Of a stretch of DNA of 64,000 nucleotides, positions 58,577 through 64,000 are shown piece by piece. Below the pieces are notes generated by a model that worked only from the letters and a program-made list of their open reading frames with translations, had not been told where the DNA came from and searched no databases. The number at the start of each line of letters is the position of its first letter. Position 1 is the first letter of the stretch. The stretch lies in NCBI GenBank assembly GCA_949152475.1, contig OX424564.1:5642001-5706000 (forward strand). Direction: 5' to 3'. Source of the DNA: Terebella lapidaria. Lineage: Eukaryota > Annelida > Polychaeta > Terebellida > Terebellidae. Both the position numbers and the translations under genes were made by a program.

Positions 58577-58621
58577 CATAACCCGGCTGTGACTTGACCG
58601 ACTCCCTATCGCTTGAGGCAG

Positions 58622-59119
58622 TCACTGACCGCCCGCTGCTCCCCCGGGACTGGTTGCCATGGGTACCACGAGACCCTGCTGACTGCTGTTGCTCCCCAGA
58701 GCCTCCCACTCCACGGGCACATCGCCTAGGACCGTGGGGTTCACGAGGCTGGCTCTCTCCACATCCAGGTACAGATTCTCCGGAGTGCCTGGGATACTGG
58801 GCTCCGGACTCAGTGACGACTGGCGCAGTGGCAGCTGCGTCGTCAAGGCGACCACTGGCGACCCCATGCTCTCCCTCAGCACTGCCGGGTCCCCGGGGTA
58901 CATGTTCTCGGGCGTCCTCGGCATGCTGTGCGGCTGTTGTGAGTGTCCCGGCTGTGGGTGCTGTGACGGCAAGGCCGGAACCATGGTCGGGGCCACCACA
59001 CTGCCTCTCCACCCCGCCGGCACCGTGTCCATGTAAACGTTCTCCGGGACCCCCGGAATACTCTCCTCCGAGGCCGCCGACTGTTGATGGGACACCTGTG
59101 ATACCGTCGACTGGCGCGC
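58622..59119 (-). CDS. Last coding exon: tail with three PENxY modules
   Basis: The 165-residue tail is rich in Ser, Pro and Gln. It contains three copies of a 43-45 residue module whose core reads SIPGVPENVYMD, SMPRTPENMYPG and SIPGTPENLYLD (tyrosines 345, 390 and 433), each followed by a RxSxVVxPT-like word. The three DNA copies differ mainly at silent third positions, which confirms this frame. Such repeated tyrosines in a tail are typical docking sites for SH2 or PTB adaptors, though the partner is unknown. A second frame is also open across the exon but lacks this conservation. A further GTGAGT at 58571-58576, 45 nt past the stop, may be a 3' UTR splice site. Confidence 0.85.
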   Translation of the reverse strand, partial: ARQSTVSQVSHQQSAASEESIPGVPENVYMDTVPAGWRGSVVAPTMVPALPSQHPQPGHSQQPHSMPRTPENMYPGDPAVLRESMGSPVVALTTQLPLRQSSLSPEPSIPGTPENLYLDVERASLVNPTVLGDVPVEWEALGSNSSQQGLVVPMATSPGGAAGGQ

Positions 59120-62100
59120 CTACAGGACCCAACGAATATATCACTCAAGCCTTTAAGCCTTCAGACATGTTAAACTTCATTCAGCATGGCACACTTAAGA
59201 GCGTGGTGATTATCTGCGTCAACCGATAACCACTCACCTTCTGATATCGCTGCTTGTGCACAATGGACTTCATGGGAGACTTGTGCGGCTCCTATGTTAA
59301 GGAAACAAGTAATAATACCAAGATATCCAGCAACATAAGAGCACAAGTCCGGTTTTAAATAGAATGATCATTATAATATATTATATTAATATTATAGAAT
59401 AATCACTTGAACTGTAGACTTGCATTTATAATTGTTGTTTTCATGACGAGGAATGACTCGGAACAATTTGGAGATTGACAGTAGATAAAAAATAACGGTG
59501 TGTTAGGTATACTGTTAGATTCACTAAAACACATTATATCAAACTTATCAGAATGACCTCAGTATCTTGTGAAGTTTCTCGCTCACTTTGATCGATGCAT
59601 ACATACATTGTATATTTGTGCATTCACACCAAATTAGCAACACACGACGAAAGGTTAGGTCCAGCAATTTCAAAATCTAAAAGGATGGATTCACTGCAGT
59701 TGAAATAGTCATTACTTTGTGGCATCATAATCGACATTATATAATTGTTAAGAATGAAAATGTGAGTCAAACAATACTACAATATTTTTTTTTTGTGGTT
59801 GGAAGAAGGCGAAGAAGGATACAAAACATTTTGCGTCACTCTGCACAGAGAAAGGGCATGTCACCACACACATTGGCAAATACACACTTACGGTTTGCTT
59901 AGCTGTTTTCAAAGAAACGTAACACAGACAAATTAACGAAATGACAACACTGAACTCTACGTGCAAGACGCATGCATGATTTGAAAACAGAACGGAACAA
60001 TCAGCACAATTGCAATTGAATCTCTCAATGGCAATGACCCAATTGCCCATGCATGGATTAAGTCGGCTGTGGTGAAAACAGATCATGCAAAGAAAATCGA
60101 CAAACTCCCGAGCATGCATAGAATGTAGAACTGTAGCTACCGTATAGAATGTTACTACTCGGAGCAGAAGCAGTTATAAACGGGTCCTCGTTGACATCAT
60201 AAACCTTGGCTATAAATAATATCGGCAGCAGAGAGCTGATTACACGAGTTCAATAGACAGAAACAAACACAATATCTTATTGATTAGAAAAATCAAATGA
60301 CATGCGCTGTTCATCGGACTATTCACCGTTGGAAAACATTCACATTTAGGAGGCCTCTTTACATGCAGGGTATTTTGGGGATGCTAGCGCATGTGTGTAA
60401 TAGCTTTTTCCACTATTGTAAGCTCTTAGACAATCAACGATTGAAATCAAGAGAATACATCCTCAAAAATGACTAAGTTAGAAGACTTACAAGAGTTCTG
60501 GTACGGGTCCTCGGCACTGCTGGTGTCTATCTTCTCTTTGTTCTTGGCTTTCTTGAGCAGGACGACCAGTATGACCATGATGATGACCACCAGCACCACA
60601 GCCGCCACCACCGACACGCTGATTATGATGATCAGTTTATTGTCCTCGGCAGCCGCTATTAATGGATAGTTGCGGTTATTTTCTAATGATCACTTCCATT
60701 GGGGATGTCATCAGTGCAAACTTTATTTATTGTGAAGATACGTAAACGTATGTATAGATCATTTGATTGCCCAATCCATTGATTTTGTAAAAGCAATACG
60801 TTTCGAAGTGAGAGCAGACAGTACTCATCGACAAAAGAATAAGATTATTTTTCCTGGAAAAGTTAATTTCACATGATTTGTAAAGAAAACCCTGCAAAAA
60901 TGTTTCAACTGCAGCCAGTAAATGTCATATCTCTAATAGACGTCTAAAAAGCCGCGTTAGCAGTTTCATGGTGAATACTCTGATCATCTGAAACCATGCA
61001 ATCCGTTGGATGTTGTGGCTGCAACTGGAATTTATGAATATTTCCCGTACCTGGCACAGACTGGGTGGGGGACTGTAGCGTGACACTGAAGGAGCTTGTA
61101 TCCACGGTCAGCACGCTGTTGCTAAGGTCGGTGATTGCTAGGAAGTTGGACGTGACGGCATCCTGCAGGGTCGTCAAGGCAGCAGATAGGCTGGTCCCGC
61201 CTCCAGCAGACAACAGCTCAAATGTCACCACAATACTCCCTAGAAACAGAGGCAGGCATTTCAGTATATCTCGAATTTTCAGATTATCTCCTCATGATAT
61301 GATTTTACGATGACATAATAGGCATATTTCAAAGACTCAGACAACCGCTTTTCAACCCACATTTTTAAAGACCATCTCAACCCCGACTTGTTCACCCCCT
61401 TACCACTGGTGACGTCAAGGTTGGAGATCCTATCCTCACTGACGCCCATCAGACTGGCGAGCTGAGGCTGGATGTGTGTGATGAAGGCCGCCTTGTCCGA
61501 GCCCACGACACTGGCGTAGTCCGCGACCCAGGAGAACTGGACCTGAGCTGACTCCACGTCCGAGCCCACAACCACTGCCACCGCCGCCTGTACGAGGGGA
61601 AAAGCGAGAAAGTTTGATACAATTTGGGGACAACTTCTTGCACGAACATTTCAGATATTATGGGAATATCTGACGAAAATGTGCTCGTTTTAAGTTACAA
61701 ATTTCATATCATTGGTTAATATTATTAACCATATTGAATATCAAATTTTGAAGTAAGCAAGTCACGTACATTTCCGGATTCTGTTGTTTCTGGAAGTTCC
61801 GTTGTCTCTGGAAGCAAATCATGGATATTTGCAATTGATATGTCCTATCATATTCATTGTACAAATAATGAAGAAAGGCTTCCAGATTAGCGAATATATC
61901 ATATTGCACATGTACAGCATGCATACCACGTGAAGAGGATATGCCATTTAACAGATTTGTTAAACTGGCAAGCGTGTCATCTAAACTGATTTCATAAAGG
62001 TAGAAATTGCGAACATCAGACTCGTGTGTGAATGTATATCGTGCCAATACAGCCCATAAAGATAGAGCTCTGTCATGTGAAAATACACATTCAAACAAAA

Positions 62101-64000
62101 ATACACATTCAAACAAACATTCAATCAAACATCACATTCAAACAAATAGAGGGTACATGGAAATGTCATGCAACCATAACTTTCGAAAATATCATCAGGA
62201 TAAACAAAACTGTTCCGCAAACCTATTTCATGAATTATCAACACAATTGAATCCGTGAAGTTTTTATCAAGTGATATCTTTCTACATGCAACCTTTCCCC
62301 GATGACATAGGATAATATCCTCCCGCGAAGGGATGTGTCATGTCTTTGGTGAACAAAAGCAAATACAACTAGAACGATGGCAATGATTACCGTAAGGATA
62401 ATTGGTATTTCCTGATGCAGTAACATCTGAAGTCGAAAGTTGTACAATAAAGGTTACAGATTTCAACTGATCTTTCTGTACGATCATGAGTCGGTGTATT
62501 TATAAGCAAAGTAATTCTGTGTGTGACATTTCAGCCTCTCACCCTCACAACGTCATAAGACCCCCTGTAGTACAAAAAGTGTCACCCTGTCTACTTCCCA
62601 ACATCATGTGACCCCGCTGTATTACAAGAAGTGTCACCCTGTCTACTTCCCAACATCATGAGACCCAGCTGTATTACAAGAAGTGTCACCCTGTCTACTT
62701 CCCAACATCATGAGACCCAGCTGTATTACAAGAAGTGTCACCCTGTCTACTTCCCAACATCATGAGACCCAGCTGTATTACAAGAAGTGTCACTCTGTCT
62801 ACTTCCCAACATCATGAGACCCCGTTGTATTACAAGTGTCACCCTGTCTACTTCCCAACATCATGAGACCCCGCTGTATTACAAGAAGTGTCACCCTGTC
62901 TACTTCCCAACATCATGAGACCCCGCTGTATTACAAGAAGTGTCACCCTGTCTACTTCCCAACATCATGAGACCCAGCTGTATTACAAGAAGTGTCACCC
63001 TGTCTACTTCCCAACATCATGAGACCCCGCTGTATTACAAGAAGTGTCACCCTGTCTACTTCCCAACATCATGAGACCCCGCTGTATTACAAGAAGTGTC
63101 ACCCTGTCTACTTCCCAACATCATGAGACCCCGCTGTATTACAAGAAGTGTCACCCTGTCTACTTCCCAACATCATGAGACCCCGCTGTATTACAAGAAG
63201 TGTCACCCTGTCTACTTCCCAACATCATGAGACCCCGCTGTATTACAAGAAGTGTCACCCTGTCTACTTCCCAACATCATGAGACCCCGCTGTATTACAA
63301 GAAGTGTCACCCTGTCTACTTCCCAACATCATGAGACCCCGCTGTATTACAAGAAGTGTCACTCTGTCTACTCATCATAAGACCTCTGCATGGCAAGAAT
63401 TGTCAACATGTGTACATTCATTCTTCATACATGTAAGTCATCGCTGTAGGCATATTACAAGACTTGTCAACGTCTTTACCTTCCATTTTCATAAGACATC
63501 CCGGTATTACAAGACATGCTCACCTTCCATCGTTTCCTGCTCTGTGGTGTACATGACTTCTGTTGTTGTCTCTTCATCGACTATTGGATCCGCCTCAAAC
63601 ACGCTGCAAATATCATAATTCTTGAATGTTATATTTCGTCTTCCAATTTTCTCATTGGAACTCAACATCTTACAACTTGACATAGTTACACTGCTCTGAT
63701 TACCACAATTACCTAAGCAGACCAAGTTGGCTGCAGGAGCAGACGACAAATGTAGTTCCCGCCTCCTCCACTGGGAGCGCTGACTGACAAGTATCCACCG
63801 TCCAGTCACCACCGTCCCATTGACGACACTGTCAAATCATTGGGGGGAATTTTAGAAAATGACTTGCACCATATTAGGACAAAGGAAGAAGCAAACGTTC
63901 TAGTTTTGAACACGCAGGCTACAGCAACCGACTGCACACAAGCCATCCAAACATGTACCTGTAGGCTGTGCTCTGTGAGGTTAACTTCCCCCTCTATCGG
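58622..64000 (-). CDS. Single-pass membrane protein: GPS-like, SEA-like, TM, phosphotyrosine-type tail (5' partial)
   Basis: Eleven minus-strand exons are placed: 63959-64000 (continues off the edge), 63713-63828, 63524-63603, 61770-61807, 61404-61587, 61051-61239, 60491-60655, 60141-60209, 59892-59902, 59238-59291 and 58622-59119. All junctions are GT-AG, phases agree throughout, and the sum is 1,446 nt, or 481 residues plus a stop. Domain order by residue: GPS-like Cys/Trp module 15-57, Thr/Glu linker 58-92, SEA-like region 93-216, membrane span 224-250, basic stop-transfer 251-258, cytoplasmic tail 259-481. The design is that of a cell-surface receptor or mucin-like adhesion protein. The N-terminal ectodomain is outside the window, so the family name is open. 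Exon GC content is much higher than the surrounding DNA. The model rests on splice logic and needs transcript support. Confidence 0.82.
59238..59291 (-). CDS. 54-nt cytoplasmic exon
   Basis: Symmetric phase-0 exon encoding EPHKSPMKSIVHKQRYQK between TTAACATAG and GTGAGT. Basic, with an SP site. Because it is a multiple of three it could be skipped without changing frame. Confidence 0.72.
59892..59902 (-). CDS. 11-nt microexon
   Basis: CTAAGCAAACC lies between a pyrimidine-rich acceptor ending AAAACAG and the consensus donor GTAAGTGTG. It converts phase 1 to phase 0 and adds A-K-Q-T. Without it the flanking exons do not share a frame: direct joining leads the tail out of its coding frame. It is far too short for ordinary gene finders. 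Confidence 0.65.
60141..60209 (-). CDS. Cytoplasmic exon with two tyrosines
   Basis: Encodes SKVYDVNEDPFITASAPSSN followed by ILY, phase 1 at both ends, after acceptor TTATAG and before donor GTAGCT. The EDP(Y/F) word repeats the EDPYQNS of the preceding exon. Confidence 0.7.
60491..60655 (-). CDS. Transmembrane exon
   Basis: Encodes AAAEDNK, a 27-residue hydrophobic span (LIIIISVSVVAAVVLVVIIM plus VILVVLL) and the basic KKAKNKEK that sets the cytoplasmic side, then SSAEDPYQNS. The acceptor and the consensus donor TT|GTAAGT are clear. A type I single-pass topology is implied. Confidence 0.9.
61051..61587 (-). CDS. SEA-like module in two exons, split at GSIVV
   Basis: Exons 61404-61587 and 61051-61239. 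The first encodes two strands (AAVAVVVGSDVESAQVQFSW) and a helix (KAAFITHIQPQLASLMGV), ending RISNLDVTS. The second begins GSIVVTFELLSAGGG and a helix (LTTLQDAVTSNFLAI). The pattern of an I-x-x-L...GS-V-V-V turn is that of SEA modules, which self-cleave between the Gly and Ser. The phase-1 intron interrupts exactly the Gly codon of this site. Membership in SEA is inferred by motif, not by profile search. Confidence 0.6.
61770..61807 (-). CDS. 38-nt small exon continuing the Thr/Glu linker
   Basis: Reads ETTELPETTESGN after joining in phase 1 and leaves in phase 0. The acceptor TTGCTTCCAG and donor AAT|GTACGT are adequate. The repeated ETTELPETTE composition continues that of the previous exon, which supports it. 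Confidence 0.7.
61808..63523 (-). other. Intron containing the 52-bp array
   Basis: About 1.7 kb. The left 700 bp are AT-rich with a short ACACATTCAAACAA repeat near 62085-62145; the remainder is the tandem array and its decayed edges. Confidence 0.7.
62530..63520. repeat. 52-bp minisatellite, about 16 units plus decayed edges
   Basis: The unit CTGTATTACAAGAAGTGTCA plus CCTGTCTACTTCCCAACATC and ATGAGACCC repeats with very few differences from about 62570 to 63365; one unit near 62830 is four bases shorter. At the right edge three increasingly diverged units lead up to the exon at 63524. The high uniformity suggests recent expansion and probable length variation between individuals. Confidence 0.95.
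63524..63603 (-). CDS. Thr/Glu-rich linker exon
   Basis: Encodes the end of the GPS-like module (VFEADPIV) and an acidic, Thr-rich stretch (DEETTTEVMYTTEQETME). It is a likely extended, O-glycosylated stalk. Its donor GAAG|GTGAGC opens the intron that holds the 52-bp array. Confidence 0.75.
63713..63828 (-). CDS. GPS-like (GAIN C-terminal) motif exon
   Basis: The exon encodes CRQWDGGDWTVDTC and then TTFVVCSCSQLGLL, with the next exon adding SVF. The two Trp and four Cys (C15, W18, W23, C28, C44, C46) have the spacing of a GPS motif. In cleaving GPS motifs the last part reads C-x-C-x-H-L followed by S or T. Here the His is Gln and the residue after Leu is Gly, so self-cleavage at this site is unlikely. 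Unusually for a GPS, the membrane span does not follow directly; a linker and a SEA-like region lie between. Confidence 0.75.
63959..64000 (-). CDS. Partial exon before the GPS-like module
   Basis: Encodes PIEGEVNLTEHSLQ and ends at CAG|GTACAT in phase 0. The other two frames of this fragment contain stops, which fixes the frame. The residues would form the strand that precedes the first GPS cysteine. Confidence 0.65.

Follow-up and report, generated by a model that had tools for sequence, protein, structure and literature searches.

ErbB-type receptors have docking tails of the NPxY type. In E-cadherin, the NVYYY sequence binds the PTB domain of Numb when unphosphorylated and the HYB domain of Hakai when phosphorylated, as PMC3507883 describes. 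Known proteins with REJ and GPS regions include polycystins and the sperm receptors of sea urchins, several of which have a channel part, and PLAT is present in most of the structures predicted in PMC1934368; there, SpREJs 1, 8, and 9 have one predicted transmembrane segment, and the REJ domain is partial in SpREJs 8 and 9. In this study, we analyzed an exon of the annelid Terebella lapidaria that encodes three copies of a PENxY motif and lies in the window, namely, the whole stretch of 64,000 nucleotides under analysis. This exon probably belongs to a large one-pass REJ/GPS surface receptor because it ends an in-phase chain with a GPS-like motif, one transmembrane helix, and a tail, and a REJ domain lies upstream. 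No description of a PENxY-type motif was found in open-licence PMC, nor was anything found there on the combination of SEA, GPS, and REJ, and for repeats in receptor tails it offered a single review, on B cells; among the matches listed for annelid REJ in the same collection, no title was on point.

Exon chain and domains of the probable receptor

Eleven exons join in phase, and the ten intervening introns are all GT/AG. The order is a pre-GPS exon, a GPS-like exon, two stalk exons, two exons of a juxtamembrane domain, a transmembrane exon, three short tail exons, and the PENxY exon. Coordinates above 64000 are the window numbering continued into the adjoining DNA.

63959..64000 (full 64091-63959), minus strand: window part of the pre-GPS exon; donor from the chain, acceptor read; the gene continues past the window
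63713..63828, minus strand: GPS-like exon, CRQWDGGDWTVDTCQ...TTFVVCSCSQLGLL; Pfam GPS E 0.0019, 19.1 bits against a cut-off of 22.5
63524..63603, minus strand: stalk exon, VFEADPIVDEETTTEVMYTTEQETME; phase-consistent chain
61770..61807, minus strand: short stalk exon, ETTELPETTESGN; phase-consistent chain
61404..61587, minus strand: juxtamembrane ectodomain exon 1; phase-consistent chain
61051..61239, minus strand: juxtamembrane ectodomain exon 2, TSG/SIVVTFELL; placed by the chain, SEA-like by eye only
60491..60655, minus strand: transmembrane exon, LIIIISVSVVAAVVLVVIIMVILVVLL then KKAKNKEK, ending in EDPYQNS (YxN); hydropathy maximum 3.59 over 21 residues
60141..60209, minus strand: tail exon, KVYDVNEDPFITASAPSSNILY, with DPF and Y308/Y327; phase-consistent chain
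59892..59902, minus strand: 11-base tail micro-exon encoding most of AKQT; required for phase closure, the least certain exon
59238..59291, minus strand: tail exon, EPHKSPMKSIVHKQRYQK; phase 0-0, donor cagaag/GTGAGTGG scoring 12.1
58622..59119, minus strand: PENxY tail exon; acceptor ggtcctgtag/GCGCGC, phase 0 from the preceding exon; supported by the motif and shuffles

The first chain exon was begun at the open-frame start, 64099, and the acceptor places the exon start at 64091; the first two residues of the resulting 515-residue partial protein are intron letters, and its numbering is arbitrary. The sequence-only reading had taken the PENxY exon for part of a receptor tail, and a one-pass receptor tail is supported by the eleven in-phase exons, the strong hydrophobic segment, and the KKAKNKEK stretch ahead of the tail exons. 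The tail comprises 231 residues, of which 57.6% are P, S, G, Q, A, T, or E, and contains seven tyrosines: Y301 (in YQN), Y308, Y327, Y347, and the three motif tyrosines. It is presumably located on the inner side of the membrane and disordered. Pfam detected no kinase domain in these 231 residues and no PLAT domain at E up to 1; an 11-transmembrane part was not found in the spliced 515 residues, which have one strong hydrophobic segment.

Outside the splice chain, a second hydrophobic stretch occurs in an open frame near 62.4 kb. It was dropped as a chain exon because it misfits the chain; should it prove to be an exon, the interpretation as a one-pass receptor would be wrong. A minisatellite at 62548-63372, in which a 52-base unit is repeated 15.9 times with 97% matches, lies in the intron that separates the two stalk exons.

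Approximately 18 kb beyond the window end, upstream of the chain and on its strand, a frame at 82162-82443 matched the Pfam REJ model PF02010 with 53.5 bits (cut-off 25, E 2e-14), and this match spans only positions 58-132 of the 452 in the model. The Pfam GPS model PF01825 gave 19.1 bits in the joined chain and 16.6 bits with a longer query, against its cut-off of 22.5; the best PDB match of the GPS-like region was unrelated (E 0.37), and the region reads QL-G where we take the usual cleavage word to be HL-T/S. The sequence-only reading had assigned the tail to no known receptor family. This can be improved upon, since the REJ domain upstream on the same strand and the GPS-like motif in the chain point to an ally of REJ/PKD1-type receptors. 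The juxtamembrane domain contains TSGSIVVTF, with GSIVV in it, which resembles what we take to be the SEA self-cleavage word (G/SVVV-like); a Pfam search of this domain at E up to 1 did not detect SEA, and its best PDB match was unrelated (E 0.17).

Further upstream, the exon at 64430-64276 joins the pre-GPS exon in phase 2, and the exon at 78571-78296 ends in phase 0, which fits 64430-64276 across an intron of approximately 14 kb with retroelement frames. These long frames inside the receptor gene lie on the plus strand (65243-72357 and 73792-76602) and belong, by sight, to a Gypsy-type retroelement, with another long frame that resembles gag. Farther up, a frame near 98.7-99.8 kb contains a WAP domain with 29.6 bits (cut-off 20.8); strand, order, and family logic suggest that the REJ and WAP domains belong to the same gene as the tail. 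Gly/Ser-rich repeat frames occupy 98658-99791 and 101745-102305 (SGSGSGWGSY and SGSGYGPGYG), the first of them ending in the WAP domain. A start that resembles a signal peptide lies near 102.6 kb, and together with it these frames may form the N-terminal end of this receptor. Cysteine words such as CGVCGG and CAGVCGG recur in several same-strand frames at 93175-94851 and are perhaps a repeated ectodomain cysteine motif.

Two other elements were noted in the adjoining DNA. A 1631-codon minus-strand frame, with an overlapping frame of reverse-transcriptase-like sequence (85159-90051), looks like a DIRS-type element, and a leucine-rich-repeat receptor with a TIR-like inner domain on the plus strand (120354-123175) is a Toll-like receptor by sight.

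Three copies of the motif and their divergence

The PENxY exon runs from 59119 to 58625 on the minus strand (165 codons) and is followed by an in-frame stop at 58624-58622. Its three motif copies are as follows.

59033..59062, minus strand: motif copy 1, SIPGVPENVY; Y codon 59035-59033
58898..58927, minus strand: motif copy 2, SMPRTPENMY; Y codon 58900-58898
58769..58798, minus strand: motif copy 3, SIPGTPENLY; Y codon 58771-58769

The consensus is S-[IM]-P-x-x-P-E-N-x-Y, in which S, P, P, E, N, and Y are identical across the copies (6 of the 10 core positions). The motif tyrosines are exon residues 29, 74, and 117, spaced 45 and 43 residues apart, and residues 378, 423, and 466 of the partial protein; the numbers 345/390/433 given by the sequence-only reading differ from these by a constant offset of 33. 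When 10-residue windows were compared, the best three-copy match was 6/10, whereas the exon peptide, shuffled 1000 times, never exceeded 4 and thus never came to 6. As a look-elsewhere control, every stop-to-stop frame in the window that reached 100 aa (42 in total) was treated in the same way with 60 shuffles: the PENxY frame exceeded its shuffle mean by 2.97, the next best frame by 0.98, and three other frames of at least 100 aa over the same GC-rich DNA gave 0.62, 0.10, and −0.62. The exon frame, the shuffles, and this control together confirm three tyrosine motifs in the same frame at the spacing first noticed. The claim of a 44-residue module holds as a spacing, but the part that is clearly shared is a core of approximately 10 residues. 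After the tyrosine, RxS is common to all three copies at altered spacing; the longer word RxSxVVxPT that had been proposed fits copies 1 (RGSVVAPT) and 3 (RASLVNPT), whereas copy 2 (RESMGSPVVALTT) fits only loosely.

Third codon positions account for 18 of the 27 pairwise base differences in the core (10 codons; binomial p 0.0004, the pairs not being independent) and, counted by variable columns, for 8/12 (p 0.019). By the Nei–Gojobori method, pS in the core was 0.56, 0.84, and 0.89 and pN was 0.24, 0.13, and 0.15, with only 6-7 silent sites in each comparison. Peptide scores of unit against unit far exceeded those of shuffles (2, 0, and 3 of 2000 reached them), whereas DNA scores were no better than those of codon-shuffled sequences (251, 137, and 192 of 2000 reached them); a search for a DNA tandem repeat in the exon at score 30 yielded none. 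These results indicate that the copies are probably old with their peptide core kept and, with pS above pN and the DNA repeat gone, that the peptide has outlasted its DNA. Mostly silent drift between the DNA copies, as had been claimed, agrees with the third-position counts and the excess of pS over pN; selection on the peptide is supported inside the core by the same excess, within one genome, and conservation rests on three copies in one exon, as no orthologue was seen. Past the core, the resemblance among the copies was marginal (the score was reached by 115, 20, and 66 of 2000 shuffles), which makes the RxS word a weak part of the unit.

This weak likeness would also fit a tandem duplication that arose long ago in a GC-rich exon and has no docking function, the resemblance being leftover homology. 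The exon DNA is 55-70% GC (40-base steps, 58600-59119), and open frames come easily in such DNA. We nevertheless regard this explanation as highly improbable because pS (0.56-0.89) stands against pN (0.13-0.24) in the core after the DNA likeness has gone, and neutral remains should not retain the same six residues.

The C-terminal end of the tail is less well defined. GC-rich DNA continues for approximately 45 bases after the stop, as far as a donor at 58577 with a good score (10.0), and codon scores in this segment favor another frame (0.366 versus −0.295); a weaker donor (6.2) at 58630 would skip the stop. No strong coding-like stretch was found on the same strand at 30000-58600, the best (18.6) lying in low-complexity sequence, with a coding-stretch model that is weak, having been trained partly on exons of the gene itself and missing 3 of the 11 chain exons. 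A short last exon beyond the PENxY exon is possible, so that the actual end of the protein is uncertain. All three motifs precede the alternative donors and the stop region. Codon bias did not separate the frames over 59119-58775 (0.288 versus 0.217; some training pieces were perhaps out of frame), but splice phase and the repeat do.

We also searched the 761.6 Mb genome (438 contigs) for paralogues, scoring only the best candidates. Apart from itself, the tail exon gave only two candidates, both weak (E 0.56 and 5.6). The third module, searched together with the residues that follow it, matched only itself, the juxtamembrane domain only its own two exons, and the REJ exon itself and one weak match (E 0.089). 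Thus, this genome search yielded no further copy of the tail. The Pfam REJ model gave 25 genome matches at approximately 13 places, grouped by eye. Beyond this genome, the search for relatives covered domain families (Pfam and NCBIfam), protein structures (PDB), and viral contigs (IMG/VR). The PENxY exon had no match in Pfam, where the whole tail matched only DUF4837 (11.7 bits, cut-off 25); NCBIfam gave no match, and PDB gave none up to E 10; in the viral contigs of IMG/VR, none of eight pattern stretches was confirmed.

The mitochondrial DNA (15973 bases) was annotated by placing protein and rRNA genes from frames and gaps and tRNAs by search. The order is cox1-N-cox2-D-atp8-Y-G-cox3-Q-nad6-cob-W-atp6-...-H-nad5-F-E-P-T-nad4L-nad4-C-M-M-rRNA-V-rRNA-L-A-S-L-nad1-I-K-nad3-S-nad2, which we take to match the annelid ground pattern. 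Two tRNA-Met genes are neighbors in this order, and a long simple repeat (reading MYMYMY) lies between atp6 and nad5. The cox1 frame has an internal TGA and is broken under the vertebrate code but open under codes 5, 9, 13, and 14; we preferred code 5 because code 9 turns what we assume to be the conserved K of NHKD in cox1 to N.

Docking and other readings of the motif

The three motifs are best explained as repeated docking sites in the tail of a REJ/GPS receptor, to which we assign a probability of about one half on the sequence evidence. The Pro/Ser-rich tail of this receptor, whose transcript presumably includes the REJ domain, would present three equivalent linear motifs approximately 44 residues apart to one adaptor. 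The motif would be bound by a domain that reads its N-terminal side, either PTB-like or of some other kind that recognizes PxxPENxY. Phosphorylation of the tyrosine may act as a switch for this binding, and the three copies would raise avidity when a surface or matrix ligand brings receptors together. A reader of this side is favored because five of the nine residues before the motif tyrosine are identical in all three copies, whereas none of the three positions after it (+1 to +3: MDT, PGD, and LDV in copies 1, 2, and 3) is common to all. For this reason, we think that such a reader, PTB-like or other, is likelier than three equal SH2 sites.

In a classical SH2 docking tail, each tyrosine would be phosphorylated, SH2 adaptors would read the residues downstream, and PxxPEN would serve in kinase recognition. 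Copies 1 and 3 have [ML]-D after the tyrosine, giving YMDT and YLDV (hydrophobic +1, acidic +2), which leaves such a reading open for these two copies, and Y301 lies in YQN. By contrast, the residues that should be read differ among the copies while those before the tyrosine are kept, and SH2 specificity lies C-terminal to the phosphotyrosine according to PMC3507883; we therefore consider a tail of this kind unlikely.

The motif is not NPxY, as N is at −2 and not at −3, and the tail had no match to NPxY, to the ITIM/ITSM pattern [ILVST]xYxx[ILV], or to PI3K YxxM, PPxY, and TRAF6 patterns. The Cbl TKB ligand, [ND]xpY[ST]xxP, had no full match in the tail, and its [ND]xY part occurred four times. 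Among 17 patterns compared, only PxxP and [ND]xY lie inside all three cores, with TP in two and YxxPhi at one. Further tail words are YQN at 301, which we take to be GRB2 SH2-like, and DPF at 313, presumably AP2-like.

The recurrence of PxxP in all three copies, together with TP in copies 2 and 3 and RxS after every copy, would suit a proline or Ser/Thr element, that is, a PxxP ligand of an SH3-like domain or a TP site for a proline-directed kinase, with the tyrosine as a side contact. However, neither the class I nor the class II SH3 pattern was matched, copy 1 has VP instead of TP, and the invariant N and Y would be unneeded, which makes this element improbable.

Comparison with known receptors

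Carried further, the docking reading leads to a doubtful proposal: the motif would be an undescribed docking motif, read mainly upstream of its tyrosine, that links a one-pass annelid REJ/GPS receptor to an adaptor in three copies, and a signalling tail would replace the channel part of polycystins. If this is true, the same ectodomain type is coupled to adaptor signalling in another animal branch. The reader can be sought directly with peptides because the motif is short and exact, and removal of the gene may have no obvious backup since the genome yielded no second tail.

The worm receptor, as proposed, resembles sea urchin SpREJs 1, 8, and 9 of the PKD1 family, as described in PMC1934368, in combining a REJ domain with a single predicted transmembrane segment. 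It differs from them in that its GPS-like motif is separated from the membrane by a stalk and an additional domain, and in the three PENxY motifs of its tail. This comparison covers the described domain layout, and the words "tyrosine" and "tail" occur nowhere in the text of PMC1934368. Like polycystin-1 and PKD1-like proteins, the worm protein has a REJ domain and then a GPS-like region ahead of the first transmembrane helix, but unlike polycystin-1 it has one helix in the spliced chain, not 11, and a tail without PLAT. With the E-cadherin N751VYYY and ErbB NPxY tails, it shares tyrosines with N shortly upstream in a tail that is presumably inner in the worm; in the worm tail, which has no kinase domain, this N is at −2, is preceded by P-E, and recurs in three near-identical copies.
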